Assembly (NCBI RefSeq): GCF_026151205.1
Contig: NC_087082.1
Location: forward strand, 20,236,494 to 20,300,493
Length of the DNA: 64,000 nt
DNA from: Bolinopsis microptera
Lineage: Eukaryota > Ctenophora > Tentaculata > Lobata > Bolinopsidae
Direction of reading: 5' to 3'
Positions 1,186 to 56,570 of the stretch are shown in pieces. Below the pieces are notes generated by a model, which was not told where the DNA came from, did not search any database, and worked only from the letters and a program-made list of their open reading frames with translations. Position 1 is the stretch's first letter, and the number at the start of each line of letters is the position of its first letter. Both the position numbers and the translations under genes were made by a program.

Positions 1186-4100
1186 AGGTATTTAGTGTGC
1201 CGGCAGTTAGTCTCATGTCTAGGTGTCTAAGTGTATATTCTATATGGGCAGTACTGGAAATATCATGGTGAGCATCCCTTTTAACATCAGTATTTAGTGT
1301 GCCGGCAGTTAGTCTACTGTCTAGGTGTCTAAGTGTATATTCTATATGAGCAGTACTGGAAATATCATGGTGAGCATCCCTTTTAACATCAGGTATTAGT
1401 GTGCCGGCAGTTAGTCTCATGTCTAGGTGTCTAAGTGTATATTCTATATGGCAGTACTGGAAATAGCATGGTGAAGCATCCCTTGTAACATCAGGTATTT
1501 AGTGTGCCGGGCAGTTAGTGCATGTCTAGGTGTCTAAGTGTATATTCTATATGGGCAGGTACTGGAAATATCATGGTGAGCATCCCTTTTAACATCAGGT
1601 ATTTAGGGTACTGGAAGTTAGTCTCATGTCTAGGTGTCTAAGTGTATATTCTATATGGGCAGTACTGGAAATATCATGGTGAGCATCCCTTGTAACATCA
1701 GGTATTAGTGTGCCGGGCAGTTAGTCTCATGCCTTGGGTCTAAGTGTATATTCTATATGGGCAGTACTTGGAAATATCATGGTGAGCATCCCTTTAACAT
1801 CAGGTATTTAGTGTGCTGGAAGTTAGTGTCGTCATGTCTAGGTGTCTAAGTGTAGATTCTATATGGGCAGTACTGAAATATCATGGTGAGCATCCCTTTT
1901 AACATCTAGGTATTTAGTGTGCCGGCAGTTAGTCTCATGGTCTAGGTGTCTAGTGTATATTCTTATTGGGCAGTACTGGAAATATCATGGTGAGCAACCC
2001 TTTTAACATCAGGTATTTAGTGTGCCGGCAGTTAGTGTCATGTCTAGGTGTCTAAGTGTATATTCTATATGGGCAGTACTGGAAATATCATGGTGAGCAT
2101 CCCTTTTAACATCAGGTATTTAGTGTGCCGGCAGTTAGTCTCATGTCTAGGTGTCTAAGTGTATATTCTATATGGCAGAGTAATGGAAATATCATGGTGA
2201 GCATCCCTTTTAACATCAGGTATTAGTGTGCCGGCAGTTAGTCTCATGTCTAGGTGTCTAAGTGTAATTTCTATATGGGCAGTACTGGAAATATCATGGT
2301 GAGCATCCCTTTTAACATCAGGGTATTTTAGGGTACTGGCAGTTAGTCTCATGTCTATGTGTCTAAGTGTATATTCTATATGGGCAGAGTACTGGAAATA
2401 TCATGGTGAGCATCCCTTTTAACATCAGGTATTTAGTGTGCTGGAAGTTAGTCTCATGTCTATGTGTCTAAGTGTATATTCTATATGGGCAGTACTGGAA
2501 ATATCATGTGTGAGCATCCCTTTTAACATCAGGTATTTAGTGTGCCGGCAGTTAGTTCCATGTCTAGGTGTCTAAGTGTATATTCTATAGGGGGGCAGTA
2601 CTGGAAATATCATGGTGAGCATCCCTTTTAACATCAGGTATTTAGTGTGCCAGGCAGTTAGTCCTCATGTCTAGGTGTCTAAGTGTATATTCAATATGGG
2701 CAGTACCTGGAAATATCATGGTGAGCATCCCTTTTAACATCAGATATTTAGTGTGCCGCAGTTAGTCTCATGTCTAGGTGTCCAAGTGTATATTCTATAA
2801 TGGGCAGGTACTGGAAATATCATGGTGAGCATCCCTTTTAACATCAGGTATTTAGTGGCCGGCAGTTAGTCTCATGTCTAGGTGTCTAAGTGTATATTCT
2901 AATGTGCAGTACTGGGAAATATCATGGTGAGCATCCCTTTAACATCAGGTATTTAGGGTACTGGAAGTTAGTCTCATGTCTAGGTGTCCAAGTGTATATT
3001 CTATATGGGCAGTACTGGAAATATCATGGTGAGCATCCCTTGTAACATCAGGGTATCTTAGGGTACTGGCAGTTAGTCTCATGTCTAGGTGTCCTAAGTG
3101 TATATTCTATATGGGCAGTACGGGAAATATCATGGGGAGCATCCCTTTTAACATCAGGTATTTAGTGTTGCCGGCAGTTAGTCTCATGTCCTAGGTGTCT
3201 AAGTGTATATTCTATATGGGCAGTACTGGAAATATCATGGTGAGCATCCCTTTTAACATCAGGGATTTAGGGGACTGGCAGTTAGTCCATGTCTTGTCTA
3301 ATGTAATTTTTATGGGGGAGTATGGGGAAAAATTTTAGGTGGCATCCCTTTTAACACAGGATTTAGGGGGGGGAAGTTTCCATGTCTAGTGTCTAAGTGT
3401 ATATTTATATGGGGATACTGGGAAAAATCATGGGAGCTCCCTTTTAAATCAGGATTTTCGGTATGGAATTAGTTTTCATGCTAGGGACTAAGGTATATTC
3501 TAAATTGGGGATACTGGGAAAAATCATGGTGACATCCCCTTTTAACTTTAGGTATTTAGGGTATGGAAAAGTGTCGTTAGGGGTCTAAGTGTAATTTTAT
3601 ATGGGTAGTACTGGAAATTCATGGGGGCATCCCTTTTAACATCGGGATTTAGGGGACTGGGGTTAGTCCATGTCAGGGGTTAAGGGATATTCTATATGGG
3701 GGTTGGAAATTATGGGGAGCATCCCTTTTTCTCAGGTATTTTGGGTACTGGGGAAATTAGTTCATGTCTAGGGGCTATGTTATTTTATGGGCATCTGGAA
3801 ATATCGGGGGCTCCTTTTTTAAAAAGGGATTTAGTTCCCCGGGATTCCCCCATTCTAGGTGTCTAAGTTTATTTTAATGGGGATACTGGAAAATCATTGG
3901 GGGGGCCTTTTTAAAATAGGTATTTATATAATTTTGTCTAATCTAGGGGGGCTAAGTGTATATTTATAGGGCGTACTGGAAATATCTGGGACATCCCTTT
4001 AACATCAGGGATTTGGGTACTGGAAGTTAGTCTAATGTCTAGGTGTCTAAGTGTATTTCTATTGGGGATCTGGAAATGTTTATGGGGACATCCCTTTTAA

Positions 4101-10100: not shown

Positions 10101-13100
10101 TTGGGGCCGGGGTTTGTCCAATTTAGGTGTTAAGGAAAAATTTTATTGGGGATACTAAATATCATGGTACTTTCCCCCTTTAAAAATAAGGGATTTAGTG
10201 TGCCGGCAGTGCTCATGTCTGGGTCTAGTTTATATTCTATAGGGGGAGTACTGGAAATATCATGGGGACATCCCCTTTAACATCAGGATTTTGTTCCCAT
10301 TTTCCCATGTTAGGGGTCTAATGTAAATTTTTTATTGGCAGTAAGGAAATATTTGACATCCCTTTTAACATAGGGGATTAGTGTACTGGAAGTTAGTTCC
10401 CTGTCTAGGGTCTAAGGTATTTCTATAGGGCATATGGAAATTTTTTGTGGCATCCCTTTTAAAAAATATTTTTGGGGGCGGCAGTTAGTCCATGTCTAGG
10501 TGTCTAATGTATACTTATGGGGGATACTGGAAAAATCATGGTGAGATCCCTTTTACATCAGGTTTTAGTGTGCCCGCGTTATCTTTCCCAGGGTCTAAGT
10601 GTATATTCTATATGGGCGTATGGAAATACTGGGAGCACCCTTTTTAAAAATAGGTATTTAGGTACTGGAATTATTATGTCTAGTTCTAGGTTTTTTTCTA
10701 TAGGGCGTATGGAAATATCATGGGGAGCTCCCCTTTTTAACATGGTATTTAGGGTATGGGAGTTTGTCTCATGTCTAGGGTTAAGTGTATATTCTATATG
10801 GGGAGTACGGAAAAATTTATGGTGAGCATCCCCTTTTAAAAATCGGATTTAGGGGGACGGCAGTTATCTCTGTCTAGGTGGTCTAAGTGTTATTTTATTG
10901 GGAGTATAAATCATGGGGGGCATCCCTTTTAAAATAGGTTTTTTAGTGTGCCGGATTTGTCTCATTCTAGGTGCTAAATGTAATTCTATATGGGCAGAAA
11001 TGGAAAAATTTATGGTGAGCATCCCTTTTAACATCAGGGATTTAGTTCGGAAGTTGTCTCATTTATTTAAGTGTATTTTTATGGGGATACTGGAAATATC
11101 ATGGGGGACATCCCTTTTAACTCAGGGATTTTGTGTCCCGGGAGTTATTCTGTCTGGTGTATAGTGTATATTTTTATATGGGCGGGCTGGAAAAATATGG
11201 TGACATCCCTTTTACATCAGGTATTTGTTGGGCCGCTTTTTGTCGCTAGGTTTGTGATTTCATTGGGGGGTCTGGAAATTCATGGGGAGCTCCCTTTTTT
11301 AAAATAGGGTTTTATGGCCGGAGTTAGTCTCATGTCTAGGTGTCTAAGTGTATATTCTATATGGGCAGTACTGGAAATATCATGGTGAGCATCCCTTTTA
11401 ACATCAGGTATTTAGTGTGCGGGATTGCTCTGTTAGGTGATAAGTGTATTTCTATATGGGGATTTTGGAAATATCATGGGGAGCATCCCCTTTTTCTAGG
11501 ATTTAGTGTGCCGCATTTTCTGTTAGGTTTAATGTATTTCTAATGGGGAACTGGGAAAATCAGGGGAGCTTTTTAACATCATTTTAGTTTGGAAATTAGT
11601 TCTCAGGGCTTGCTAAGTGTATTTCTATAGGGGATACTGGAAATTCATGGGACATCCTTTTTTAAAATCATATTATGACTGGAAATTAGTCTCATGCATT
11701 ATAAGGTATATTCTATATGGGGGTTGGAAATTCTGGGAGCTCCCTTTTAAATCAGGGATTTAGTGTGCCGGCATTAGTTTATTTGGTTCTAATGATATTC
11801 TTATTTGGGGATACGGAAAAATCTGGGGGACATCCCCTTTTTTATCAGTATTTAGTGTGCCGGGCCGTTAGTCTCATGTCTAGGGGTTTTAAGTGTTATT
11901 CATATGGGGGTACTGGAAAAAACGGGGACTCCCTTTTAACATCAGGTATTGTGTCCGGGGTTATCCCTTTAGGGGTTTTAAATGTATATTCTAATCAGTA
12001 TGGGAAAAACATGGTGGCTCCTTTAACACAGGTTTTTTTGTACTAATTTCCAGCTTTCCAAGTTTATTTTTATGGGCATACTGGAAATTCATTTAGCATC
12101 CCCTTTTTTCATCATATTTGGTCCGGCGTTTTCTCATTTAGGGGTTTTAAGTTATATTCTATATGGCATCTGGGAAATCTTGGCTCCCCCTTTTAACATC
12201 AGGTATTTTGGGGCCGGGATTTTTTTCATGCTAGGTTCTAAGGTATATTATAGGGCAGTACTGGGAAAAATCATGTATTCCTTTTAACTCAGTATTTAGT
12301 TGCCGGCATTAGTCTCATTCTAGGGGGTTAAGTTATATTCATTGGGATACTGGGAAAATTTAGTGGCATCCCCCAAAAATATATTTTTGGCGGAGTAGTC
12401 CTGTCTAGGTGCTGTGTTTTCTTATGGGGGGTACTGGAAATACATGGGAGCATCCCCTTTAACTCAGGTATTTAGTGTCCGGGAGTTATCTCTGTCAGGG
12501 GTTATTATATGGGCAAAATGGGAAAAACTGTCTCCCTTTTTAACTTATTTATTGCCGGGAGTTGTCCGTCTAGGTGTCTAATGTAATTCTATTGGCATAC
12601 GGAAATATCATGGTGACATCCCCTTTTTAAAACGGTATTTGTGATGGAATTGTTCAGTCAGGGGGCAATGTATATTCTTAAAGGGGGTATGGGAAATACT
12701 GGGGAGCATCCCTTTTTCTCAGGGATTTAGTGTCCCGGGATTTTGTCTCATGTTTATGTGTCTAGGTTTATATTCTTATGGGCTACTGGGAAAAATTTTG
12801 GGGGCTCCCTTTTTAAAATCAAATTTTTACGGGAATTAGTCTCATTCTATGTTTAAATGTATATTCTTATGGGAACTGGAAAAAAATTTATGGGGGACAT
12901 CCCTTTTAACAGAGGTAATTGTGGCCGGCAGTTATTTGCTAGGGGCTAAGTGTATATCTATATGGGCAGTACTGGAAATATCATGGTGAGCATCCCTTTT
13001 AACATCAGGTATTTAGTGTGCCGGCAGTTAGTCCTCATGTCTAGGTGTCTAAGTGTATATTCTATATGGGCAGTACTGGAAATATCATGGTAGCATCCCT

Positions 13101-16100
13101 TTTAACATCAGGTATTTAGTGTGCGGCAGTTAGTCTCATGTTAGGTGTCTAAGTGTATATTCTATATGGGCAGTACTGGAAATATCATGGTGAGCATCCC
13201 TTTTAACATCAGGTATTTAGGGCCGGGAGTTTTCCCATTTAGGGGTTCTAATGTAATTTTATTGGGGAGTACTGGAAATACATGGGACATCCCCCTTTTA
13301 AAATCGTATTTTTGTGCCGGGAGTTAGTCTAGTCTAGGTGTCTAATTGATATTCATATGGGCTACTGGGAAAATTTTATGGTGACATCCCCTTAAAATCA
13401 GGATTTATTACTGGAAATTATCTCAGCTAGGGGTTTTAAGTGTATTTCTATATGGGGGTTGGGAAAAACATGGTGAGATCCCCCTTTTAAATCAGGGATT
13501 TAGGGGACTAAAATTACCTCATGTTGGTGTTAATGTTTTTTATGGGCCTACGGAAAAATCATGGTGGCATCCCCTTTTAAAAAGGGATTTTTGGGGCTGG
13601 GAGTTTGTTATGTCGGGGTTTAATGTATATTCTTTTGGGCCTACTGGGAAAATCATGGGAGCATCCTTTTACTCAGGGTTTTTTTGCCCAGTTTTTAAGT
13701 TAGGGGTCTAAGTATTTTTATATGGGCTACTGGAAAAAATATGGGGGCATCCCTTTTAACATCAGGTATTTATGTATGGGGTTTGTTATGTTAGGTTATA
13801 AGGTATTTATATGGGGAGTACGGAAAAAAAAATGGGGGCATCCCTTTTAAAAAATCTATTTTTCCGGCTTTTTTTCATTCTAGGGGAATTAATTTTTATG
13901 GGCATAGGGGAAAAACATGGTGGCACCCCTTTTTTTCATCAGGTATTTAGTGTGCCCGTTATTCTCATTTAGGTGTTAAGGTATTCTATATGGGGATCTG
14001 GAATATCATGGTGAGCATCCCTTTTTAAATCATTTTAGTGTGCCGGGGTTAGTCCCATGTTAGGTGTCTAATGTTTTCTATATCATCGGAAAAATTCATG
14101 GTGGATCCCCTTTAAATCAGGTATTTAGTGTCTGGAGTTTTCTCATTCAGGTTCTAAGTGTTATTTTTACATACTGGAAAAATCATGGGGGGCATCCCTT
14201 TTAACACAGGGATTTTTTGGGGCCGGGGAGTTAGTTCCTGTCTGGGGTTTAATTTTATTTTAATGGGCATCTGGAATTATTTACCCTCCCTTTTAAACAT
14301 CAGGGATTTGTGTCCGGGAGTTAGTCTCATGTCTAGGGTCTAAGTGTATATTCATATGGGGGTTCGGGAAATACTGAGCACCCTTTTTAAAATCAGGGTT
14401 TTGTTCCCGGCAGTTTTTGTCTCATGTCAGGGGTCTAAAATTAATTTTTATGGGCATACTGGAAAAATATGGTGACATCCCTCTTAACATAGGTATTTTG
14501 TGTGCCGGCAGTTAGTCTCTGTCTAGGGGTCTAAGTGTAATTCTATATGGGGATAGGGAAAAATCATGGTGGATCCCTTTTACATCAGGGATTTTTGTGT
14601 GCCGGCAGTTAGTCTCATGTCTTGTATATTCTATAGGGGATACTGGGAAAAAAAAATTGGGGAGACCCCTTTTTAAAAAAGGGATTTAGGTGCCGGCAGT
14701 TGTCTCATGTCTAGGGGTTAATTATATTCTATTTACAGTACCCGGAAATATCATGGGACATCCCCTTTTAAAATCAGGGATTTTTTACGGAAGTTAGTTC
14801 TTCTAGGTGTCAAGTGTATATTTATTGGGCAATGGAAATATATGGGGGCACCCCTTTTTAAATCAGGATTAGGTTCCGGGAGTTAGTCTCATTCTATTTT
14901 GGGGTTTTAATTTTAATGGGGAATGGAAAATCATGGTAATCCCTTTTAACATCATATTTGGGGCAGTTAGTTCATGTCTAGGGTTAATTAATTTTTATAT
15001 GGGCAGACTGGAAATTCATGGGGCATCCCTTTTAAAGCATTTAGTGTGCGGGAGGGTTTTTCATTTAGGGTTAAAAGTATATTCTATTTCCCCCCTACGG
15101 AAATATCATTTTGCCATCCCCCTTTTAAAACAGGTATTATGTCCGGGATTAGTCCAGTCTAGGGGTTTTAAGTGTAATTTTAATCGTCTGGGGAAAAAAA
15201 ATGGGGGCATCCCTTTTTAAAATAGTTTTTTATTGCCGGGGATTGTCCCCTGTCTATGTTAAGGAATTTTATGGGGATACTGGAAAATATCTGGTTTAGC
15301 ATCCCCTTTTTAAAATCATATTTTGTGTGCCGGGAGTTAGTCCCCTGTCTAGTTAAGTGTAAATTTTTAGGGGGTACTGGAAATATCTGGTGAGCTCCCT
15401 TTTAACATCGTATTTAGTGGCCGGCGTTATCTCTGTTGGTTCAATTGTATATTCTATAGGGGTTGGAAAAATCTGGGGGGCATCCCTCTTAACATCAGGG
15501 GATTTTGTGTACTGGGAAATTAGTCTCATGTTGGGGGTTTAAGTGTTATTCTATTGGGGGTAAAATATATGGTGACATTCCCCCTTTTAACATCAGGATT
15601 TAGGGGGTTTAAGTTTCTTCATGCTAGGGGTCTAAAGATATTTTTTGGATACGGAAATATCAGGTGACTCCCTTTTAACATAGGATTTTGTGTCGGGGTT
15701 ATCCATGTTAGGGGTTTTTAAAATTATATTCTATAGGGGGGTACTGGAAATATCATGGGGCTCCCTTTTAAATCAGGGATTTTTGTGTCCGGCAGTTGTC
15801 TAAAGTCGTGTCTAAGTGTATATTTTTTGGGAAATTTCTAAATATCAGGGGAGATCCCCTTTTAAAATCAGGGATTTAGGTGCCCCAGTTAGTCTCATGC
15901 TAGGTGTCAATGTAATTTTATATGGGAGTATGGGAAAATCATGGTGAGCACCCTTTAACCAGTATTTTGGTGCCCAGTTTTTCTCATTCTAGGGGTTTTT
16001 TAATTTTTTTCTTTGGGCAGTACAAATTCATGGGGGACATCCCTTTTAAAAACAGGGATTAGTGTGCCGCAGTTAGTCTCACTGGTTTAAGTTATATTCT

Positions 16101-18968
16101 ATATGGGCAGTACTGGAAATATCATGGTGAGCATCCCTTTTAACATCAGGTATTTAGTGTGCCGGCAGTTAGTCTCATGTCTAGGTGTCTAAGTGTATAT
16201 TCTATATGGGCAGTACTGGAAATATCATGGTGAGCATCCTCTTTTAAACATCAGGTATTTAGTGTGCCGGCAGTTAGTCTCATGTCTAGGTGTCTAAGTG
16301 TATATTCTATATGGGCAGTACTGGAAATTCATGGGGAGCATCCCTTTTAACATCAGGGTATTTTAGTGTGCCGGCAGTTAGTCGCATGTCCCTAGTGTGT
16401 CTAAGTGTATTTCTATATGGGCAGTACTGGAAAGATCCTGGTGGACATCCATTTTAACATCAGGTATTTAGTGTGCCGCCAGTGCAGTTAGTCTCATGTC
16501 TAGGTGTCTAAGTGTATATTCCTATATGGGCATGTAACTGGAAAATCATGGTGGACTCCCTTTTAACATCAGGTATTTAGTGTACTGGAAGTTAGTCTCA
16601 TGTCTATGTGTCTAAGTGTATATTCTATATGGGCAGTACTGGAAATATCATGGTGAGCATCCCTTTTAACATCAGGTATTTAGTGTGCCGGCAGTTAGTC
16701 TCATGTCTAGGTGTATATTCTATATGGGCAGTACTGGAAATATCATGGTGAGCATCCCTTTTAACATCAGGTATTTAGTGTGCCGGCAGTTAGTCTCATG
16801 TCTAGGTGTCTAAGTGTATATTCTATATGGGCAGTACTGGAAATATCATGGTGAGCATCCCTTTTAACATCAGGTATTTAGTGTGCCGGCAGTTAGTCTC
16901 ATGTCTAGGTGTCTAAGTGTATATTCTATATGGGCAGTACTGGAAATATCATGGTGAGCATCCCTTTTAACATCAGGTATTTAGGGTACTGGAAGTTAGT
17001 CTCATGTCTATGTGTCTAAGTGTATATTCTATATGGGCAGTACTGGAAATATCATGGTGAGCATCCCTTTTAACATCAGGTATTTAGTGTGCCGGCAGTT
17101 AGTCTCATGTCTAGGTGTCTAAGTGTATATTCTATATGGGCAGTACTGGAAATATCATGGTGAGCATCCCTTTTAACATCAGGTATTTAGTGTACTGGCA
17201 GTTAGTCTCATGTCTAGGTCTAAGTGTATATTCTATATGGGCAGTACTGGAAATATCATGGTGAGCATCCCTTTTAACATCAGGTATTTAGTGTGCCTGG
17301 CAGTTAGTCTCATGTCTAGGTGTCTAAGTGTATATTCTATATGGGCAGTACTGGAAATATCATGGTGAGCATCCCTTTTAACATCAGGTATTTAGTGTAC
17401 TGGCAGTTAGTCTCATGTCTAGGTGTCTAAGTGTATATTCTATATGGGCAGTACTGGAAATATCATGGTGAGCATCCCTTTTAACATCAGGTATTTAGTG
17501 TGCTGGCAGTTAGTCTCATGTCTAGGTGTCTAAGTGTATATTCTATATGGGCAGTACTGGAAATATCATGGTGAGCATCCCTTTTAACATCAGGTATTTA
17601 GTGTGCCGGCAGTTAGTCTCATGTCTAGGTGTCTAAGTGTATATTCTATATGGGCAGTACTGGAAATATCATGGTGAGCATCCCTTTTAACATCAGGTAT
17701 TTAGTGTACTGGCAGTTAGTCTCATGTCTAGGTGTCTAAGTGTATATTCTATATGGGCAGTACTGGAAATATCATGGTGAGCATCCCTTTTAACATCAGG
17801 TATTTAGTGTGCTGGCAGTTAGTCTCATGTCTAGGTGTCTAAGTGTATATTCTATATGGGCAGTACTGGAAATATCATGGTGAGCATCCCTTTTAACATC
17901 AGGTATTTAGTGTGCCGGCAGTTAGTCTCATGTCTAGGTGTCTAAGTGTATATTCTATATGGGCAGTACTGGAAATATCATGGTGAGCATCCCTTTTAAC
18001 ATCAGGTATTTAGTGTGCCGGCAGTTAGTCTCATGTCTAGGTGTCTAAGTGTATATTCTATATGGGCAGTACTGGAAATATCATGGTGAGCATCCCTTTT
18101 AACATCAGGTATTTAGTGTGCCGGCAGTTAGTCTCATGTCTAGGTCTAAGTGTATATTCTATATGGGCAGTACTGGAAATATCATGGTGAGCATCCCTTT
18201 TAACATCAGGTATTTAGTGTGCTGGCAGTTAGTCTCATGTCTAGGTGTCTAAGTGTATATTCTATATGGGCAGTACTGGAAATATCATGGTGAGCATCCC
18301 TTTTAACATCAGGTATTTAGTGTGCCTGGCAGTTAGTCTCATGTCTAGGTGTCTAAGTGTATATTCTATATGGGCAGTACTGGAAATATCATGGTGAGCA
18401 TCCCTTTTAACATCAGGTATTTAGTGTGCTGGCAGTTAGTCTCATGTCTAGGTGTCTAAGTGTATATTCTATATGGGCAGTACTGGAAATATCATGGTGA
18501 GCATCCCTTTTAACATCAGGTATTTAGTGTGCCTGGCAGTTAGTCTCATGTCTAGGTGTATAAGTGTATATTCTATATGGGCAGTACTGGAAATATCATG
18601 GTGAGCATCCCTTTTAACATCAGGTATTTAGTGTGCCTGGCAGTTAGTCTCATGTCTAGGTGTCTAAGTGTATATTCTATATGGGCAGTACTGGAAATAT
18701 CATGGTGAGCATCCCTTTTAACATCAGGTATTTAGTGTGCCGGCAGTTAGTCTCATGTCTAGGTGTCTAAGTGTATATTCTATATGGGCAGTACTGGAAA
18801 TATCATGGTGAGCATCCCTTTTAACATCAGGTATTTAGTGTGCCGGCAGTTAGTCTCATGTCTAGGTGTCTAAGTGTATATTCTATATGGGCAGTACTGG
18901 AAATATCATGGTGAGCATCCCTTTTAACATCAGGTATTTAGTGTGCCGGCAGTTAGTCTCATGTCTAT
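1186..18968. repeat. tandem satellite array, 103-bp unit, about 170 copies
   Basis: A 103-bp unit repeats head to tail over 17.8 kb. Fixed landmarks in each unit are GTATTTAGTGTGCCGGCAG, TCTCATGTCTAGGTGTC, TATATTCTATATGGGCAG and GAGCATCCCTTTTAACATC. The spacing of CTTTTAACAT between 17581 and 17684 gives the period directly. Variants at one site (GTGCCGGCAG, GTGCTGGCAG, GTGCCTGGCAG, GTACTGGCAG, GTACTGGAAG) mark sub-families. Units from about 16080 to 18968 are nearly identical, units from 1186 to about 3290 differ by scattered single-base indels, and the middle is heavily degraded. The open frames inside it are by-products of the repeat. A centromeric or heterochromatic role is possible, but only the array itself is seen. 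Confidence 0.95.
3290..16080. repeat. degraded interior of the 103-bp satellite
   Basis: The same unit is still traceable every 90-105 bases, but with dense small deletions and with homopolymer runs such as GGGG, TTTT, AAAA and CCCC replacing mixed bases. Islands of near-perfect units lie inside the noise (about 4220-4390, 6245-6420, 6670-6890, 11330-11420, 12945-13215). This pattern looks more like poor long-read consensus than ordinary divergence, although real decay cannot be excluded. Confidence 0.75.
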
Positions 18969-20610: not shown

Positions 20611-20894
20611 TTAGGGAGGATTTTAGATCTTTAAGTAGCTGTAAAGTTAAAGTAATGGTGCTAGGTTTGTTAGAACTAGTAAAACATTCTCATTAAACTA
20701 TATAAAAAAATAAGTATAAAGAATAAGGAAAAGGAACGGGAATGAAGCCAATACCAGAAGTGAAACCCCACCAAAGAATAATTGATCCTTAGGTAGACCT
20801 GGTGAAATAAAGTAACTGAACTGTAAGTTTAAGAAAAGACGGAAGGAATAAAGGAGAGAGGAAATAATGTTATGTGAACATCATCAGCAGATGA

Positions 20895-20974
20895 CTTGGC
20901 ACACCGGTTTCGGGGGTTTAATACCTGTACCGGTTTAATGTGCCAAGACCCCCTAGCAATCACTCGTCAGTGAT
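20895..20974 (-). other. two stem-loops in the Naiad 3' untranslated region
   Basis: CTTGGCAC at 20895-20902 pairs with GTGCCAAG at 20940-20947, and two ACCGGT blocks lie inside the same stem. A second hairpin, ATCACT-CGTC-AGTGAT at 20959-20974, ends at the stop codon. Copies 2 and 3 carry the same structures (24414-24493 and the mirror position near 55328-55409). They may be recognition structures for reverse transcription; that is inference. Confidence 0.55.
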
Positions 20975-23607
20975 CACCTGTTCACGTTAAATGTGATGTC
21001 AAGGATGTCGCTGACATCAAGTATACTGTATTTGTACAGAATACTAGGTCGGTCTTTCAGAAGCTTTCTGAATTTACTCTTCAGGAGTCTGTCATTATAA
21101 CATCTTGAAAGAAGTGTCCTATAAAGGGTGTTGGTAGAACACAGAAAAGAATCAAGGTCAGAGATAATGGAAGAGTAACGAAGGACCTGACCGTAAAAAA
21201 CATTATAACCAACAGAAGAGGAAATATTACTGTTAGGAAAGGTGTACATGACCACAGGAAAGTTGAAGTCATCAAGTTTGTTGTAAAGCTTGGTGGCGAC
21301 GTGTCCGGAGTTATTCATCGAGATGTTGATGTCGAGATAGTTTACGGACTTATTGTCGTCACCACTCCTCTCCATAAGCAGGTCAGGTGGATAAATGGAC
21401 CTGATTAGGTTAGAGAAATGCAAATAGTTCATGGTGTTGAGGTCGTCGACATATCTGCAGTTTCTTGAGAGGAGCTTAGCGAGACCGAACTTCTTTTCTT
21501 TGATTAGGCGTGTCATGTAGTTGAATTCACACTTCCCTAGCGAAAGATCAGCGAACTGGCTACTAGAATTCCCTCCCATGGGAATGCCTTTCGTTTGTCT
21601 TAAAATCTGATCCCCAAAACAAACAAAAGTGTTAAACAGAATAAATGTAATAGCTGTTTTGAGTTTATCAGCAGAAAAACATAAGTATCCGTTATATTCC
21701 TTTTTAGAGAAAAAATTGTTGTTCTTATACAGAGAAACACAAATAAATTTATTCGTATTACTAAAGAGGAGATCTATTAGCTCGAAAAGCAGTGACTGTA
21801 CAACCTGAAGGTCTAGATTGGTATACAGAGTGGTAAAGTCGTATACCTGCATATTAAAAATCTCTAGTCTAGGCAGCCTTTCCAGGAACTGTTTAGAGCT
21901 GTTAATGCTCCAGTCGCAGTTAATTCCAGTATTGTTGTAGATAGAGTTGCAGTATTTGGAAAAGTATTCTTTTAAAACTTTTAAAGCTTTGTTGACTACA
22001 ACTGATATCTGCTTAGTGGTACATTTACTGGCCCCAGCTATAAATCTAGACTTATAAGGATTCTTGTGAAGTTTAGGAATCCAAAAGATTCTCGGTAGAC
22101 AAAGGTTGTCCTCGGAAACACGAATATTAAAGTTATCTTTAATGAAGTTCACATGTTCCTGAATAATATCATCCTCTACAGAGTTAACCGGATGATAAGT
22201 AGAATTGCCACGACACTCTAGAGAAGTGAGATCGTAGCCAAGTTCGTTGAGAAGGGTTAAAAGATAAAACTTCTTGCAGACAAAAACATAATTATTTGAA
22301 GCTTTATCTACGGAGCAAATAATAAAAGAAGAAGAAAGACTGTCGAGATAAGATTTAACATCATCCCTTTGTAGAATGGAATTGTAGGGAGTGAAGTTAT
22401 TAGGGGAGGAGGAGAGGAAGTTAAGGCGATTGGTGAAGATCCGGGAGACCTCATCTTTCCAATCCTGGAATTCCAAACATGAAAGTCCATGCTTCCTAGC
22501 CATACGGGTGGCGAAGTTGGCTGAACACTCGTTGAGGCTCTCCAAGATTTGCTCAGGAGGAACAGACACAGGTTCCCTAAATTTGGTACCGTAACTCATG
22601 ATGCCTCTTAAATCCTCGTGCTCAATGAAAGCAAGGTCACCGGTGATGATGTGGCCTCGAGGCTGATAGCAATAAGGGTTACTGGAACAGGGGCAATCAC
22701 CTTCCAGGATGGAGGAAATAGTAGTATTATCAAGTGATTTAAGGAATCTATTATAATTAAAAAGCTTACGCCCGACAGGAATATCGTACTTATAGTAAAC
22801 TTTTAAGGGAAGGAAAGGCGTAAGGTTTGGAGGGAGAAGAGTCAAGATCCTAGAGTCACGAATGACTGATTCTATTCGGAGTTTATCAAATATTTTAGAA
22901 CAATAGTGAAAAGTGATAAACTCGCTATTAACAGAGGTGATATTAGGAGAAGAAGTGCTGTCTTGGCCAGCAAAAGATTGTATAACAAGGAAAATGGCTC
23001 CAGATTTGCAGAGGGAATGAGAGCTAAGTTGCTTGAGCTCGCCTTTTTGAAGGCTACTTATATCTTTATAAAAGCTGTATTTGCTTTCAGACATTTTTCT
23101 TTTTAAACTTTCATATTTATTGTCAATCTCTCTTAAAGTGAGAGTCCTTTTGTATATTCTATCTTCATGGCTTTTGTTTTTCTTTTTTCTGCCATGTCCT
23201 CTTTTATATCTTTTTATTTTATTTTTAAAATAAATATCGTTAAAGTTGCTTTTAGAAATATTACCAGAACCTTTTATGTTGTCATTGAGACCTAGAGGGT
23301 GAGCAGTGCTCAGGAGATTAATCCAAAGAAGTTCCCTGTCAGCTAAGGCCAGACGAGGGTCTTCAGTAGAGGAAGGGTCAATAAAATCAATAATTTGAAT
23401 GGAGGCGTCATGAAAATTATGACCGGGAGTATTAAAGTGGTCATGGACAAAGGAGGATTTGCCGGCTTTAACCGAAGCACGGTGTCCATTCATGCGTTCA
23501 TTAAGGCGCTGTTCTGTGAGCCCAACATATTGAATACCACAAGAACAAGTGAGGAGGTAGATAATAGAAGAAGATTTACAAGAAAAGGATTCAGAGTGAG
23601 TTAACAT
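20974..23607 (-). CDS. Naiad polyprotein: N-terminal GIY-YIG endonuclease plus reverse transcriptase
   Basis: 877 residues from the first ATG. Residues 14-110 are a GIY-YIG endonuclease: IIYLLT, CSCGIQYVGL, NGHR, RELLWI with the catalytic Glu near 92, and the HPLGLND tail. A basic linker follows (about 121-155). CPC at 305-307 is the CxC motif characteristic of permuted, N-terminal-endonuclease Penelope-like elements. The reverse transcriptase runs from about 430: VDKASNN, PKLHKNP (511-517), RFIAGASK, YDFTTLYTNL (motif A, 589-598), GIPMGGNSSS (674-683), and the catalytic YVDD at 719-722. The frame stays open 55 codons upstream of this ATG and includes CNKSRCITC, a cysteine cluster expected in the family, so the true N-terminus is probably longer. 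No stop or frameshift lies inside the ORF; the C-terminal 292 residues are identical to copy 3, which argues for recent activity. Confidence 0.9.
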   Translation of the reverse strand: MLTHSESFSCKSSSIIYLLTCSCGIQYVGLTEQRLNERMNGHRASVKAGKSSFVHDHFNTPGHNFHDASIQIIDFIDPSSTEDPRLALADRELLWINLLSTAHPLGLNDNIKGSGNISKSNFNDIYFKNKIKRYKRGHGRKKKNKSHEDRIYKRTLTLREIDNKYESLKRKMSESKYSFYKDISSLQKGELKQLSSHSLCKSGAIFLVIQSFAGQDSTSSPNITSVNSEFITFHYCSKIFDKLRIESVIRDSRILTLLPPNLTPFLPLKVYYKYDIPVGRKLFNYNRFLKSLDNTTISSILEGDCPCSSNPYCYQPRGHIITGDLAFIEHEDLRGIMSYGTKFREPVSVPPEQILESLNECSANFATRMARKHGLSCLEFQDWKDEVSRIFTNRLNFLSSSPNNFTPYNSILQRDDVKSYLDSLSSSFIICSVDKASNNYVFVCKKFYLLTLLNELGYDLTSLECRGNSTYHPVNSVEDDIIQEHVNFIKDNFNIRVSEDNLCLPRIFWIPKLHKNPYKSRFIAGASKCTTKQISVVVNKALKVLKEYFSKYCNSIYNNTGINCDWSINSSKQFLERLPRLEIFNMQVYDFTTLYTNLDLQVVQSLLFELIDLLFSNTNKFICVSLYKNNNFFSKKEYNGYLCFSADKLKTAITFILFNTFVCFGDQILRQTKGIPMGGNSSSQFADLSLGKCEFNYMTRLIKEKKFGLAKLLSRNCRYVDDLNTMNYLHFSNLIRSIYPPDLLMERSGDDNKSVNYLDINISMNNSGHVATKLYNKLDDFNFPVVMYTFPNSNISSSVGYNVFYGQVLRYSSIISDLDSFLCSTNTLYRTLLSRCYNDRLLKSKFRKLLKDRPSILYKYSILDVSDILDITFNVNR

Positions 23608-24206
23608 GAAAGAATTATTAGTAACGTAACTGGTGAAAATATTACTTGACCTGAATGGTTTACAGGTGATACATCTTGACTTATTACACGGTGTTATATC
23701 AGGGGAAATAATACTGTTGGGATGAATCCAAGTGTTGGATGTGATGTTATATATTTTATTTCCTTTCTTAAGTCAAGAATTTACAGGACAAACTTAACAG
23801 CCGACTCCAACTGAAAAAGCCCTGGGAACCATCACCAACCAGATGCCTTGGGGCTGCCAAGGTTAAGCGGGCGTTAGGTGACATGAACTAATGTTCTCCC
23901 ACTGTCACAGTGCAGCCAAGCAGAGTGCTGTTGTTCCAAGAACACTCTTTATAACCGGATCACACACTGCCGCTGCTTCTCGTACCGTAGCTAGGGCGGG
24001 CAGCTCACGCCCCTGTTTGGTCTAAGGAACAGAAAACATGAAGGGAAACACTCCTGAAGAACTGTGCAAAAGGGGGTAATAATATCATAAAAAGGGCCAA
24101 CTAGCAAAAACTAAGGACGTAAATCATATAATAACAAGCTATCACTTGGCGCATCCGGCAGGGCGGAGGAACCGCCACACACTTTCAACAGTGATACAAA
24201 TTGCAA

Positions 24207-24903
24207 TCTCATTAAACTATATAAAAAAATAAGTATAAAGAATAAGGAAAAGGAACGGGAATGAAGCCAATACCAGAAGTGAAACCCCACCAAAGAATAA
24301 TTGATCCTTAGGTAGACCTGGTGAAATAAAGTAACTGAACTGTAAGTTTAAGAAAAGACGGAAGGAATAAAGGAGAGAGGAAATAATGTTATGTGAACAT
24401 CATCAGCAGATGACTTGGCACACCGGTTTCGGGGGTTTAATACCTGTACCGGTTTAATGTGCCAAGACCCCCTAGCAATCACTCGTCAGTGATCACCTGT
24501 TCACGTTAAATGTGATGTCAAGGATGTCGCTGACATCAAGTATACTGTATTTGTACAGAATACTAGGTCGGTCTTTCAGAAGCTTTCTGAATTTACTCTT
24601 CAGGAGTCTGTCATTATAACATCTTGAAAGAAGTGTCCTATAAAGGGTGTTGGTAGAACACAGAAAAGAATCAAGGTCAGAGATAATGGAAGAGTAACGA
24701 AGGACCTGACCGTAAAAAACATTATAACCAACAGAAGAGGAAATATTACTGTTAGGAAAGGTGTACATGACCACAGGAAAGTTGAAGTCATCAAGTTTGT
24801 TGTAAAGCTTGGTGGCGACGTGTCCGGAGTTATTCATCGAGATGTTGATGTCGAGATAGTTTACGGACTTATTACGGACTTTACGGACTTATTGTCGTCA
24901 CCA
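24207..24903 (-). mobile_element. Naiad copy 2, 5'-truncated (3' end only)
   Basis: Same orientation as copy 1 and directly upstream of it. It keeps the last 114 codons of the ORF (24493-24837) plus the full 3' untranslated region to the shared end at 24207. The truncated side shows a short local duplication of TTTACGGACTTATT (24860-24893) before similarity ends at CACCA (24903). Such a partial copy ahead of a longer one is the pseudo-LTR configuration of Penelope-like elements. Confidence 0.85.
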
Positions 24904-25023: not shown

Positions 25024-25368
25024 CTCCCTCTCCCTCTCCCTCTCCCTCTCCCTCTCCCTCTCCCTCTCCCTCTCCCTCTCCCTCTCCCTCTCCCTCTCCC
25101 TCTCCCTCTCCCTCTCCCTCTCCCTCTCCCTCTCCCTCTCCCTCTCCCTCTCCCTCTCCCTCTCCCTCTCCCTCTCCCTCTCCCTCTCCCTCTCCCTCTC
25201 CCTCTCCCTCTCCCTCTCCCTCTCCCTCTCCCTCTCCCTCTCCCTCTCCCTCTCCCTCTCCCTCTCCCTCTCCCTCTCCCTCTCCCTCTCCCTCTCCCTC
25301 TCCCTCTCCCTCTCCCTCTCCCTCTCCCTCTCCCTCTCCCTCTCCCTCTCCCTCTCCCTCTCCCTCTC
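25024..25368. repeat. (CCCTCT)n hexamer array, about 57 copies
   Basis: Uninterrupted hexamer over 345 bases. Its two sides carry near-identical copies of CTCTCAAGTATTGA(C/T)ACACAGG (24997 and 25364 onward), so the hexamer expanded inside or between a duplicated unit. It is not the TTAGGG telomere repeat. It lies about 120 bases from the truncated end of Naiad copy 2. The frames reading RG, SL or RE repeats here are artefacts. Confidence 0.95.
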
Positions 25369-47484: not shown

Positions 47485-50400
47485 ATGTACAAGTTTGACC
47501 TACCTCTTGATACGAGAGAGGCAAATGCCATTGCCAGGAGGAGGAACTGTGAAGAGCAGAGAAAATCCAGAATATTTGATGCTCAAACTCGACAAATAGG
47601 TTTGTTTAAAAGCTCTAGGTCTTTTTACAATCCATAATAGAACGATAAATATCACCAAAATTCAATTTTTTAAACCTTAAATTTAAAATTTTTTGTCAAA
47701 ATTGAGAAAAAGAAAAATAGCAAATGAAAATAATGATCCGCCATTTTGCTTCTTCTAGATTTGTTTGGATGATCTCATGGGTTCTAGATTCATTTCAATT
47801 ACAAGATTTTATCAGGAGTTGACACAGCTGGTCTTTCTACTCAAATTGAAGAGAAGCGCCTCCGAAATCAGATAGAAAATGAGCGCAAGAAGGCATACGA
47901 CGCAGAAATGGTAAAGAATTCTCAGATTTGCACTCTGCTGGACACGCGCCAGCAAAACGACACAATGAGACAAAATGTCGAGCTCAATAAATTTAGGTTT
48001 GTTGAGCATTATGTTTTTATGGGAGAAGATACAGTAACATTTCGATTTATAGAAAAAGAAATAGATCCGGTGATGTAGATGTGGGAGCAACTGCTACCGT
48101 GATTCAAGTAATCATGCTCAAATTAAAATGTAAACACTTGCACTGTTTATAATATGTCTTCAGGTCAGAACAACAGACAGCCGCCAGTCGACGTGAGTTT
48201 GACCTTTATGACCCAGAGAGCAAGAAGAAAGACCAGCCTGCCCGAGTTTCTGACGACGACCCCAGGTGCCAAGTCTCTGGGCTCCAGCTATTCCAAGGTT
48301 AGTGCCAAGTCTCTGGGCTCCAGCTATTCCAAGGTTAGTGTTAGTTCAGATTACAGATCTTTATCTACATATTTTGCATAAATTACGCAAAATATCACTG
48401 CTAAAGTTTAGTGATGGATTTGAAAATATTTGAAGATGCAAAATTGAATATAATGGATGAGTGGATGGTTTCGTTGGCTGATGAATTATCGCCATATTTA
48501 CAATTCGACAACAAACACTTCACCTTACTTCAACTTGAACTAGTAATCTCAAAGATGGTTTATTTTGTCAGTGATGTATCGATGGTCACCGTTAGTTAAT
48601 AGATATTTGATGATGTTTGACATTACTTACCATATAATATGTATATGAGTTTAAATTCCCAAATAGTCAGACTGAGCAGGTTGAGCTGTAGTAAAACACA
48701 TATGTATATGGTTAAGTATTGTATGCATATATTATGGCAATGTTTGTCACTCTGCAAGTTCCTATTTGTGAAGATAAAAGCATTAAAAAAATCAATTTCA
48801 GGCGAAGATTTGTCAGCCAAGGAACGAAAGAAGCTTCAGCAAGAGCAGATGAGAGAATGGATAAAACAACAACTGTCAGAGAAAAATAGAGAAAAGGAGG
48901 CCTCTATGCATGCTGAAACGTGAGTCTGCTCACCTTTTCAACGAAGAGAACATTTCATGAATAACCATGTTTGTATCAGGTCTGAGGGCGTATCCGGTTT
49001 CTAGCTTTCGTCCATTTTGAAACAAACCCTATATTTAGACTGTACCAGAGGAAGATGATGCAGTTGGATCAACGTGCAGTACTGCTGGCAAAAGAAGAGG
49101 ACGAGTGCAGGAGGAATCTGAACGTAGCAACAAAGAGTTACAATGCAGCTCTGGATGCTGAGAGGAAGGCTAAGGAAGCTATTGATAAGCAGAAAGAACT
49201 TGATGATAACTTCACTGAGCTGTCTAACCAGGTACTTATTGATTTTACTACGTACTATTATAACAATAACGATTGTAACTATAATTAATAATAATTAATA
49301 ATACCGGGGGGGGGGGGGGGGGGCCAAAAGTCAGTACCCATACGTTGGGTCTCATACCACTGCCGTGTTTTATATTTGAGAGTTGTTGCTTTGCAGATGG
49401 CATACTGTACCTACTTGTTCGAGGATTCCGTCACCAAAATTTGAAAATTCGATTTTTGGGAGCCACACCTGCACCCTATGAACATTGAATTGCTTAAACG
49501 AGGTGTTTGTGAACATGTTGGAGACTCCGTTGTAACATATCGCAATAGATGGTGCGAAACGGATTTAAAATGACGAAGTTATCAAGCAATTTGTTTATCT
49601 CGTTAGCAAAATTGATTGGGTACTCAATGATTTCCCAATTACGACACTGTAATTGAGCTCTCTGCGGATCTAGCCTCAACCTAATCATCACGCAATGAAC
49701 AAATCGTTATGCTTCATATCTCGGTCATCTGAGAAGCTAGAACTCTCATTTTTTCAGGACAAACGTAATTTAAATGACCAAACGTAACACCATTCATCAA
49801 TATTTGGCTCGATCCGAAAATGAACCTTCATTTGAAAAAAATGAACACGAATATTTTTCGATTTGAAAAATTCCTCGGTGATAGTAAGTCATACCAGAAA
49901 GAGTTATTTCAATTGGGCACTCAGTGACTGAGTTATTAAGGCCAACGTATTGGTACTGACTTTTGCCACCCCCCCCCCCCCCCCCCCCGGCCCCCGTACT
50001 TTGATAGGACTAAATCGGATTGTGATAGCATATGTTATTAAAATATCTCAATTTATGCGATTATGAACCAGATAATTGTGATTTGGTTCTAGAGCCAAAA
50101 GCGAACTATAATGAAATGTTTTTTATTAGGTTTACGGAGACACGTTGACAGAGAATCCAGGAGTAGCTCAGAGCAGCTTTGGGGGCCACCGAGTTATTAC
50201 TGATCGATGGAAGGGTATGAGTGATGAACAGAAGGTTGAAATCATGAGGATAAGAGAAGAACAGGTAATTATTATTTACGATCTCTTTAGTTGAGAAATG
50301 AGGAGTTATCCTGAAAGTTGGGTCACTTGTCGTATTGGCAATTTCACGACATTTGTTTCCCAATTAGACTTAGCGCGGAGCGCAATAAATATTTTGTACA

Positions 50401-52142: not shown

Positions 52143-55100
52143 TTACATGTCTCTTTTGACAGTAGGACTTCTACGTCCGATGGTTAGGTCCCCGACTGTT
52201 GCTATAAGTGTGCCAATGTTACTTTTACGCCGGGTTTTAGTTTTGCTATTTCTTTGTTTCAAGAAATCTTCTAACTCCTTATCCTGCTCATCCATAAACT
52301 TGTCCAGGATCTTTTTGTTCATCACGCCTAGTTACGAGGCCTAGTTACGCCTAGTTACGAGGCCTAGTTACGCCTAGTATACACATTCGTGGTGGTACAT
52401 ATAGCTTGCAGTTTTCATCACCAAGCACCAATTTGAATATTCAAGAGAATGTAACTGAAGTCTGACATATTGAGTAATTATCACATTTACTTTTTGCAAA
52501 TGTGTCATTTCCTGAAATTAAAGCACGACGAACTGATACTGTCTAACAATAACTAGATATTATTGAACATACCTGGTGTATTGCGGAGGAAGGAATCATT
52601 GACCCGTTTAGAGGCTTGTAGAGGTCTACTCGCTCTCCAATATTTCTCCAGGTAATTTATCAGGTGCTCGGCCGCGTCATCAAAATCATGCTCGTTCAGA
52701 ACAACATCAAATTGTCTCTAAAGAAATAACTGTCAAATTATAAGTAGTACTGCTAATAGACACTTTAAATCTTACACAGAATGTTTAGAGGGTGAAAGCT
52801 AAGATAAAACTAGCGGGAGGTCCAATTTAGAGAATTAAGGCACATGTATTATACAGCTCGAGGCTTACACAGTGATTAGTGATGTATAAGATTTGAAGGA
52901 CTGATTATGATAATATCTCTGATCCTATGCAACCCTCTGAGGCCTACTTACCCTGTCCAGGTCGCAGAGTTTAGTTGCAGCGTATAACTGAGCTGTCAGC
53001 CCTCTCTTTTGGTCTGCCCCACGCTGCTTAATCAGATTCGTCAATACCTGTGGAAATTAAGTGGTGGAAATTTAAGAAAATTCGCTAGGTTGTTACACTT
53101 TAAATCTGTGAACATAATCTGTAATATTTAAACAGCGAACTACTCCACATATCACATAATATATATATATATACACACATATAATCTGTGTCATTCTAGA
53201 ATATCTGTCAGAGAATAATCCTGCTCCCAATAAATGTATTAAATTGGCATAATTGAACGCTGACCTTTGAGTTAGATATCTTGATATGAACGAGTATAGG
53301 ACCCATAGCACTGTTCTTCAAAGGGACCGGACTGTTGATCTTCAGATCCACAAACATGAGTTTAAACTTCTTCGCCTCCTCGTAGATGTTATTCGTTATT
53401 TCATCTAGACCCTCAGGGTTGATGCTGTACTTGTTTGAAGCTATTGAGGAGTGAAGCAGCTTTAGAAACCTATCTTGCACTGGATACGATTCGAGTCTAT
53501 CCTCAAACTGTCTCTTTAAAGCGTGTACCAGAGCTTTGTGCATGAGGTCTGTTATCTCAAAGCCTCTCATTGAGGGCCCACACAGGATAATAGGTCGTAT
53601 AACCGGGACACTCTCGTAAGGACCCTGTGCTCGGGTCTCTATCTCCGATACTCTAGTGGGAGCGATGGTGCACAGACTCTCTATACTTCCCATGTCCTCC
53701 ATCTTATCCACCTGCTTTTCTGGTACTTGCAACTTTTTCTCGTCCTTCATTCCTCCCTTTTTTATCGGACCTAGCTGAGCAGATGCTTCTTCAGCCAGCT
53801 TCTTTAGCTTGGCTGGAGCTGGAATGAAACCTATTGGAGCGTCCACTTTAACCACTCGTCCGATCCACCAATCTTCATTATATTTAGCTTTTACATGCAG
53901 ACAGTCTCTAGCTCTGAAGGTTACTGCTTTCCCGTGTATCGGAGAGTCGTCGTCATGGAAACCATTAAAAGTAAGATTTGTTCTCACAGCAAAGGCTACG
54001 TCCATCTTCTCCGCAGAAGATATGATTTCCCAGGCTTCTTTGAGTCCGTATTGATTAGTTGGCAGCAGTTCCCCGCTCCAAACATCCTGTTGAATAACAG
54101 TTTAAATCAGAACATGGAAAATACTCAATTAGTTGGCAGCAGTCCAAACAATAACCCACTCTACCAAGATTATTTATTATCATTAAATCATACTTATAGT
54201 TGCGGGATAGCCTGTAGCAGGCAACGCCCGATACTAATGTATCTACTGACTTACACAAGTGCAAGTAAGTATGTAAATATTATGCCAGGCATGTGGCACC
54301 CATTGCGGTAACCATCTTTTAAAAGTTTTAAAAGAATACTTTTCCAAATACTGCAACTCTATCTACAACAATACTGGAATTAACTGCGACTGGAGCATTA
54401 ACAGCTCTAAACAGTTCCTGGAAAGGCTGCCTAGACTAGAGATTTTTAATATGCAGGTATACGACTTTACCACTCTGTATACCAATCTAGACCTTCAGGT
54501 TGTACAGTCACTGCTTTTCGAGCTAATAGATCTCCTCTTTAGTAATACGAATAAATTTATTTGTGTTTCTCTGTATAAGAACAACAATTTTTTCTCTAAA
54601 AAGGAATATAACGGATACTTATGTTTTTCTGCTGATAAACTCAAAACAGCTATTACATTTATTCTGTTTAACACTTTTGTTTGTTTTGGGGATCAGATTT
54701 TAAGACAAACGAAAGGCATTCCCATGGGAGGGAATTCTAGTAGCCAGTTCGCTGATCTTTCGCTAGGGAAGTGTGAATTCAACTACATGACACGCCTAAT
54801 CAAAGAAAAGAAGTTCGGTCTCGCTAAGCTCCTCTCAAGAAACTGCAGATATGTCGACGACCTCAACACCATGAACTATTTGCATTTCTCTAACCTAATC
54901 AGGTCCATTTATCCACCTGACCTGCTTATGGAGAGGAGTGGTGACGACAATAAGTCCGTAAACTATCTCGACATCAACATCTCGATGAATAACTCCGGAC
55001 ACGTCGCCACCAAGCTTTACAACAAACTTGATGACTTCAACTTTCCTGTGGTCATGTACACCTTTCCTAACAGTAATATTTCCTCTTCTGTTGGTTATAA

Positions 55101-56570
55101 TGTTTTTTACGGTCAGGTCCTTCGTTACTCTTCCATTATCTCTGACCTTGATTCTTTTCTGTGTTCTACCAACACCCTTTATAGGACACTTCTTTCAAGA
55201 TGTTATAATGACAGACTCCTGAAGAGTAAATTCAGAAAGCTTCTGAAAGACCGACCTAGTATTCTGTACAAATACAGTATACTTGATGTCAGCGACATCC
55301 TTGACATCACATTTAACGTGAACAGGTGATCACTGACGAGTGATTGCTAGGGGGTCTTGGCACATTAAACCGGTACAGGTATTAAACCCCCGAAACCGGT
55401 GTGCCAAGTCATCTGCTGATGATGTTCACATTACATTATTTCCTCTCTCCTTTATTCCTTCCGTCTTTTCTTAAACTTACAGTTCAGTTACTTTATTTCA
55501 CCAGGTCTACCTAAGGATCAATTATTCTTTGGTGGGGTTTCACTTCTGGTATTGGCTTCATTCCCGTTCCTTTTCCTTATTCTTTATACTTATTTTTTAT
55601 ATAGTTTAATGAGATCTATTGAAATTTTTGATTTTCGCTGATTATTTATCAAGACTATAAGTTAGTTTCATCAAGATGTTTCCTTGCTAGTATGCAGATT
55701 TCCCATCGTACACCCGTACCCCTATAATAAACAGTGAACTAGGAATTGTTCTTGATTCTCTCTGTTAACTCTAACCTGTATTTCCTTGTAAAGTCTGGCT
55801 ATTACCTGTATTTCCTTGTAAAGTCTGGCTATTACCTGTATTTCCTTGTAAAGTCTGGCTATTACCTGTATTTCTTTGTAAAGTCTGGCTATTACCTGTA
55901 TTTCCTTGTAAAGTCTGGCTATTACCTGTATTTCCTTGTAAAGTCTGGCTATTACCTGTATTTCCTTGTAAAGTCTGGCTATTACCTGTATTTCCTTGTA
56001 AAGTCTGGCTATTACCTGTATTTCCTTGTAAAGTCTGGCTATTACCTGTATTTCCTTGTAAAGTCTGGCTATTACCTGTATTTCCTTGTAAAGTCTGGCT
56101 ATTCCGTCATCTACTGCTATCTTTCCTGACTGATCAGTTGCATAGAGGAGCTGATCCAACAACTGAAAGTTATACAAAATTATACAAACTTATAGTTACC
56201 ATAGTTACACTACTAGTTACCATAGTAACACTACTAGTTACCATAGTTACACTACTAGTTACCATAGTTACACTACTAGTTACCATAGTTACACTACTAG
56301 TTACCATAGTTACACTACTAGTTACCATAGTTACACTACTAACTTATACAAACTTATATTAACTGCAGAAAGAGATAGGAAAGATTCTGAACATTTCCTT
56401 TTTATATCTGCCTCTCTAAGCCTATCATATTATTATCATGGCACATTGCCAATAATAATATACCGAGGTTTAAAGCGATTTATGACTAAAAAATATCAAG
56501 GTATCGAGATCACCCGATAGAAATAGAGAATATATAAACTTACTGCGTCTTTGTCCATAGCTAGTGCCAT
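52143..56570 (-). CDS. CACNB: voltage-gated calcium channel beta subunit, 6 exons
   Basis: Minus-strand exons 56544-56570, 56076-56162, 53265-54086, 52952-53047, 52573-52717 and 52143-52327 join in phase, all GT-AG, for 453 residues. The large third exon holds the SH3 domain (VAFAVRTN, KYNEDWWIGRVV, GFIPAPAKL), a HOOK linker, and the start of the guanylate-kinase-like domain (VIRPIILCGPSMRGFEITDL, MFVDLKI, GPILVHIKIS). Later exons continue it: KVLTNLIKQRGADQKRG, then FDVVLNEHDFDDAAEHLINY and LEKYWRASRP, all in the order of known CaV-beta. The subunit binds the alpha-1 I-II linker and controls channel trafficking and gating at the inner membrane face. The region between SRMRG and the KFKL strand is divergent. 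Exons 1-2 (MALAMDKDA, LLDQLLYATDQSGK) are assigned by phase and splice sites, not homology. Exon 2 ends in an 11-fold repeated donor; intron 2 contains Naiad copy 3. Confidence 0.88.
52321..52378 (-). repeat. repeats containing the last CaV-beta splice acceptor
   Basis: A 23-bp unit (CCTAGTTACGAGGCCTAGTT plus 3) is repeated about 2.3 times at the intron side of the last exon. On the gene strand each half-unit supplies an AACTAG/GC acceptor look-alike. Only the acceptor nearest the exon (exon end 52327) avoids an in-frame stop. Confidence 0.75.
54128..54151 (-). repeat. partial copy of the CaV-beta exon 3 start
   Basis: ATTAGTTGGCAGCAGT followed by CCAAACA repeats the exon 3 border sequence at 54055-54085 with an 8-base gap, 72 bases inside the intron. 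It looks like a decayed duplication of the acceptor-side exon end. Confidence 0.55.
54318..55615 (+). mobile_element. Naiad copy 3, 5'-truncated, in CaV-beta intron 2
   Basis: Begins at TTTAAAAGTTTTAAAAG, equivalent to about residue 542 of the copy 1 ORF, and runs to the shared 3' end (TTTAATGAGA, 55615). The frame is intact to the stop at 55329 and its last 292 residues equal those of copy 1, including the YVDD motif. It lies opposite to the host gene's direction. Endonuclease, CxC linker and the start of the reverse transcriptase are missing, so it cannot act alone. Confidence 0.9.
55774..56105 (-). repeat. 30-bp tandem repeat, 11 copies, each carrying an exon end plus splice donor
   Basis: On the gene strand each unit reads as the codons for IARLYKEIQ followed by the donor GTAATA, so exon 2's last 27 bases and its donor are copied 11 times. 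Units are identical except one synonymous change (AAG to AAA Lys, near 55875). The last unit continues into GTTAGAG. The unit is a multiple of three and stop-free, so splicing at any copy keeps the frame. Confidence 0.92.
56193..56343 (+). repeat. 21-bp tandem repeat of X-box-like motifs in CaV-beta intron 1
   Basis: ACTAGTTACCATAGTTACACT is a 21-bp unit repeated about 7 times (first 20 bases: ACTAGTTACCATAGTTACAC). GTTACCATAGTTAC differs from the RFX X-box consensus at one base; the copy at 56216-56229 (GTTACCATAGTAAC) fits exactly. The flanks TATACAAACTTATA are themselves repeated on both sides. The array lies about 230 bases downstream of the first coding exon. Confidence 0.7.

Follow-up and report, generated by a model that had tools for sequence, protein, structure and literature searches.

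How is an intron removed when the end of the preceding exon, together with its 5' splice site, stands eleven times in a row? This question is raised by a gene for a calcium-channel beta subunit (Cav-beta) in the ctenophore Bolinopsis microptera. The gene lies in the window, the whole stretch of 64,000 nucleotides of contig NC_087082.1 that was analysed; coordinates are those of the window unless a contig is named. If more than one of the copied donors were used, the protein would vary in length just ahead of its SH3 domain. If only the first were used, the array would be without consequence for the protein.

The structure of the array was determined by TRF and by direct reading. A 30-bp unit is repeated 11 times, as described in the sequence-only reading; the copies run head-to-tail on the minus strand from 56103 to 55774, and TRF gave the repeat as 55774-56103 with a period of 30, 11.0 copies and 99% matches. 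The register that fits both flanks is AATAGCCAGACTTTACAAGGAAATACAGGT (AATAGCC...CAGGT), with GACGG before the array and TAGAG after it. In this register, the unit consists of the final 28 bases of Cav-beta exon 2 and the GT of its donor, so that the tandem duplication crosses an exon-intron boundary, the status of the exon being taken from a paralogue. CAG/GT is present in all 11 units. A synonymous change had been named as the sole difference between units, which is correct: copy 8 has AAA for AAG, both Lys, and the other 10 copies agree. A search of the assembly (264,652,675 bases in 232 contigs) for the exact unit only returned nine matches, every one inside the array. The idea of a dispersed repeat was therefore rejected.

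The donors themselves are of two kinds, which the sequence-only reading had missed. Donors 1-10 (55804-56075, minus strand) occur once per 30 bp and read CAG/GTAATA, with the GT of donor 10 at 55805-55804. Donor 11 (55770-55778, minus strand; GT at 55775-55774) reads CAG/GTTAGA and is followed by unique intron sequence. Because of the register that fits both flanks, donors 1-10 are seen to be hybrids in which the GT is joined to the exon bases AATAG. The edges of the array suggest that donor 11 is probably the original donor with its native intron after it and that donors 1-10 were made by duplication.

Since the 30-bp period is divisible by three and the unit is stop-free, every donor keeps the frame. 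The earlier description of the units as in frame and free of stops thus holds; the donors are in phase 0 and the array frame is open for 155 codons from stop to stop. This openness is weak evidence of function because exon sequence supplies nine of the ten codons and GTA is the tenth, and because a period divisible by three has a chance of about one-third. It was rejected as proof of function, given that the unit consists almost wholly of exon sequence and that the few comparable arrays lack a clear frame bias. Recursive splicing through AG/GT was also considered and rejected, as the bases before each AG appeared by eye to be too purine-rich.

The assignment of the gene to the Cav-beta family and the model of its second exon were both supported. 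The predicted protein matched Cav-beta chains in PDB (phmmer, best E 1.6e-36) and the Pfam family Guanylate_kin (E 7.3e-16); Pfam listed no SH3 match for it. Known Cav-beta proteins have SH3 and guanylate-kinase-like domains, and the phmmer and Guanylate_kin matches place the protein among them. Exons 1 to 5, all on the minus strand, splice together in frame. Exon 1 (56544-56570; MALAMDKDA), found by sequence reading, ends in phase 0 at the donor GCA/GTAAGT; it has an in-frame stop upstream, and its intron position agrees with that of paralogue intron 1. Exon 2, when ended at donor 1, spans 56076-56162 (LLDQLLYATDQSGKIAVDDGIARLYKEIQ), follows the acceptor TATAACTTTCAG and is homologous to a paralogue exon. 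Exon 3 (53265-54086) encodes the linker, the SH3 domain, the HOOK and the start of the guanylate-kinase-like domain, which continues in exon 4 (52952-53047) and ends in exon 5 (52573-52717). The positions given in the sequence-only reading for the first donor (GT at 56075-56074) and for the exon base at the acceptor (54086) were correct.

The paralogue is a Cav-beta gene on the same contig, about 2 Mb away, and its exon VLEKLMYE...ILRLCKEIKEKWSG...NQAE runs uninterrupted across the position of the array and intron, with a single copy of the motif and no intron or repeat at that site. The alignment of the two genes is free of gaps at the junction of exon 2 with 54086, and because of this both exon 2 and the junction look real. 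The junction alignment scored 179 without any extra block; one block lowered the score to 159, and 2, 5 or 10 blocks lowered it to 151. The array-bearing intron 2 is present in the window gene and absent from the paralogue, and three introns in or beside the SH3 region, apparent in the paralogue, are absent from the window gene. The paralogue has an array of its own in intron 1 (L014:2344-3013; G000:C11:18302344-18303013), in which a G-rich unit of 19 bp with GGGTGAG occurs 35 times, starting about 21 bases past the donor of paralogue exon 1.

The array donors were compared with 16 other donors from three genes, several of them read by eye from the sequence and one paralogue intron with an unclear exon end being omitted. 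G at +5 was found in 13 of the 16 and T at +3 in seven; GTTAGT served as the donor in two, one of which is a duplicated donor in the gene for RIB43A. Donors 1-10 are without the +5 G, which donor 11 has. Predicted U1 pairing was -8.1 kcal/mol for donors 1-10 and -7.1 kcal/mol for donor 11. The donor of RIB43A intron 5 (CAG/GTAATT) nearly matches donors 1-10, and on paper, by U1 pairing and by this likeness, donors 1-10 would be usable. In mammalian extracts, when a 5' splice site is duplicated without change, the intron-proximal copy is often favoured. For a 68-bp boundary duplication in human CBS, a strong preference for the more distal of the two copied sites is reported (PMC2630376). By analogy, donor choice could be nearly exclusive, and the CBS case gives no winner for the Cav-beta array. 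Sequence alone is indecisive between the donors; the paralogue, the RIB43A gene and the reports from amphioxus favour donor 1.

The RIB43A gene, about 7.5 kb from the Cav-beta array, has a similar arrangement. A donor-spanning duplication of 36 bp x 2.1 lies at its exon end CAAG/GTTAGT (48266-48340, plus strand), as seen by TRF, sequence and Pfam. When spliced from donor 1, the predicted protein aligned to the Pfam RIB43A profile over 253 residues and 253 profile positions (E 1.8e-85). With donor 2, GGT TAG would be read instead, giving an in-frame stop.

The Cav-beta array is not a lone case, as donor-containing arrays were also found elsewhere in the Bolinopsis microptera genome. Among the matches listed there were 17 such arrays, of which 16 were sampled; the one left out, at C4:9763334, has a 13-bp unit. 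When the TRF start was compared with the donor position, eight of the 16 held an apparent coding-exon end with at least 13 bases within the repeat (L027, L029, L031, L032, L034, L037, L038 and L039). With at most one mismatch allowed, five of these eight keep at least 13 exon bases in the unit and L031, L032 and L034 keep 4-6, so that the strict count of arrays spanning apparent coding-exon ends is 5/16. About 3-4 exon bases are in the unit of a further three (L030, L033 and L042), and no clear coding exon was seen at the other five sampled arrays (L028, L035, L036, L040 and L041). Open frames are the main basis for calling these exon ends coding. Of the 11 apparent exons, all except L030 were submitted to Pfam; four of these 10 gave a fitting match with E below 0.01 (two Sushi, EF-hand and AMP-binding), just one of them over the family cut-off. 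Both Sushi cases fall within the eight exon-end arrays; the L031 exon had no PDB match. The period is divisible by three in four of the eight and the unit also stop-free in two, with L034 counted at its 35-bp TRF period (69 to the next exact donor motif). Since these counts, from few cases, are compatible with chance, the comparable arrays show no sign of selection for frame or for ladders. A separate 10-bp array of CAGGTAAGTA at G000:C13:4658415-4658958 contains dozens of consecutive donor sites that fit the consensus perfectly.

Pattern counts with controls were used to ask how far donor motifs are enriched in such repeats. Pairs of MAGGTRAGT spaced 24-54 bp numbered at least 1797 vs at least 87 for the reversed pattern, at least 228 for one shuffled pattern and at least 143 for that shuffle reversed. 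Pairs of AAGGTTAGT numbered at least 663 vs at least 52. The acceptor-like YTTTCAGG gave at least 820 pairs vs at least 150, one large array and one dispersed element being prominent among the matches listed. Pair counts overstate the donor excess because pairs inside one array are not independent. Counted by places on C1 up to 17.65 Mb, there were eight donor arrays vs four reversed and none shuffled; at a spacing of 30-31 bp genome-wide there were nine places vs two, and four of the nine are arrays of shorter period. Some arrays found with the shuffled pattern hold the donor-like GTAAGTG. By places, therefore, the excess of donor motifs is roughly two- to fivefold, which is suggestive only.

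Structures of this kind have been described before. In amphioxus, minisatellite-like duplications of intron-exon boundaries, called mirages, occur in the Adh3, globin and TnC genes, and similar repeats are carried by PGBD5 (PMC3087553, PMC3902484). The Adh3 and globin data suggest that mirages leave regular splicing undisturbed (PMC3087553; see also PMC3902484), and two globin haplotypes differ in the number of units (PMC3087553). The boundary-spanning tandem duplication, AG/GT in many units and the likeness of units within a cluster, as reported there, are shared by the Cav-beta array, which is a further member of this known kind. The amphioxus cases are cephalochordate and come with transcript and haplotype data, whereas the Cav-beta array is from a ctenophore and known from genome sequence. 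It is notable for its frame-keeping donors: unlike the amphioxus mirages as described, it has a period divisible by three, is stop-free and keeps the frame at every donor.

Human genes offer two further comparisons. The 31-bp VNTR of CBS, c.1444_1467+7(16_21), comprises by its name the last 24 bases of an exon and the first 7 of an intron in 16-21 repeats (PMC2630376). Its unit, again by name, joins an exon end to an intron start as in the Cav-beta array; it differs in having a length, 31 bp, that does not divide by three, in being known to vary in people and in belonging to an unrelated gene. In human segmental duplications, internal tandem repeats at exon-intron boundaries are reported to alter splicing, with 27 intron modifications (PMC2812944). 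These repeats resemble the Cav-beta array in their position and in units that average 30 bp, and differ in having four copies on average, in lying in recently duplicated genes and in their transcript evidence (PMC2812944). Among the papers listed by a literature search for ctenophore minisatellites or splice donors, none had the word ctenophore.

We consider it probable that the Cav-beta array is a donor-spanning minisatellite, that is, a mirage, in which donor 1 is the one most likely used and the other copies leave with the intron and drift freely. A tandem duplication of 30 bp, taking in the 3' end of exon 2 and the initial GT of the intron, would have come first, followed by expansion to 11 near-identical copies, each with a potential 5' splice site. 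The spliceosome would most likely take donor 1 (GT 56075), giving the ancestral protein with one IARLYKEIQ, and the remaining copies would be spliced out with the intron, leaving copy number to drift. Of the two interpretations in the sequence-only reading, a ladder of protein lengths and a neutral array spliced solely from its first donor, the second appears the better because the paralogue has 0 extra blocks, the few arrays sampled are without a clear frame preference, the second RIB43A donor would give a stop and amphioxus mirages are reported not to disturb splicing; the ladder gained no positive evidence. The lack of a +5 G in donors 1-10, the intron-proximal preference in mammalian extracts, the cryptic-site caveat of the amphioxus authors, the strict array count of 5/8 and the reliance on open frames for the sampled exon ends count against the mirage with donor 1 used.

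Use of several donors is an unlikely explanation, though one that could tune channel inactivation if true. The protein would then carry between 0 and 10 additional blocks of ten residues, placed some 30 residues ahead of the SH3 domain. Every one of the 11 donors keeps the phase and brings in no stop, and the identity of donors 1-10 makes competition among them plausible. In mammalian Cav-beta1b and beta2, differing N-terminus lengths correlate with altered inactivation, and two Lymnaea N-termini of similar length showed no measurable difference, both according to PMC3972191. The amphioxus authors allow that splice signals in the copies might serve as cryptic sites, with alternative transcripts as the outcome (PMC3087553), although normal splicing is what is reported for the mirages themselves. 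The extra blocks are absent from the one paralogue found, and among the few comparable arrays no frame is clearly preferred. A broader version of this idea, in which 5' splice sites seed a class of Bolinopsis minisatellites and the Cav-beta array, in frame by chance, has become a real N-terminal length ladder varying with copy number between individuals, is doubtful. Similarly improbable is continued use of the native donor 11 (CAG/GTTAGA, GT 55775), with ten extra blocks (100 residues) in every protein. Donor 11 is the intron-proximal site, it has the +5 G of 13/16 other donors and the +3 T of 7/16, and the related GTTAGT serves in 2/16; against this, its predicted U1 pairing is the weaker (-7.1 vs -8.1 kcal/mol), the 100 residues are absent from the paralogue and the intron-proximal donor would give a stop in the RIB43A case. 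Minisatellites are often unstable and the window also contains a long satellite with 15% indels (1185-18967), which would fit a copy number that is an assembly artefact or an atypical assembled allele. We regard this as very improbable, as the array is just 330 bp long and clean, and the exact unit occurs in one place only.

Arrays of this kind are natural experiments on splice-site choice where the spliceosome meets many identical 5' sites, a question of long standing. They are also a proposed route to new introns. Several in one ctenophore genome would extend the amphioxus structure to a distant animal phylum. In-frame and out-of-frame cases together allow a direct comparison of splicing outcomes.

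The introns around the array contain other repeats. Just 5' of exon 2, intron 1 holds a 21-bp x 7.1 minisatellite (56193-56341, minus strand; TRF). Near the acceptor, intron 2 holds a second copy, now decayed, of the beginning of exon 3 (TGTTTGG + ACTGCTGCCAACTAAT; 54128-54150, minus strand). Its local alignment score was 34, and the highest score among 500 base shuffles was 27. Because of this copy, exon-boundary sequence seems to be duplicated at both ends of intron 2. The same intron carries an antisense insertion with a reverse-transcriptase-like ORF (54318-55614, plus strand; blastn and ORFs), which we take to be a Penelope-like element; Pfam gave no match for the ORF. The insertion is probably recent, since it is 99.85% identical to 20688-21985 (blastn). 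Besides the intron copy, the window has copies of the element at 20974-23772 (minus strand), with a 932-codon open frame, and at 24206-24873; where they align with the intron copy, the former shows 99.85% identity and the latter 99.7%. GC content in the window is 37-43% in 4-kb steps. A glutamate-receptor ligand domain encoded in the genome had Mnemiopsis ML032222a as its best match (E 1.8e-32), ahead of the next kind of chain (E 1.3e-20). The satellite at 1185-18967 is about 18 kb of a diverged 103-bp repeat, and its indels may reflect true decay or uncorrected read errors. Farther along, at 25024-25368, a CTCCCT hexamer array is perfect over 57.5 copies.
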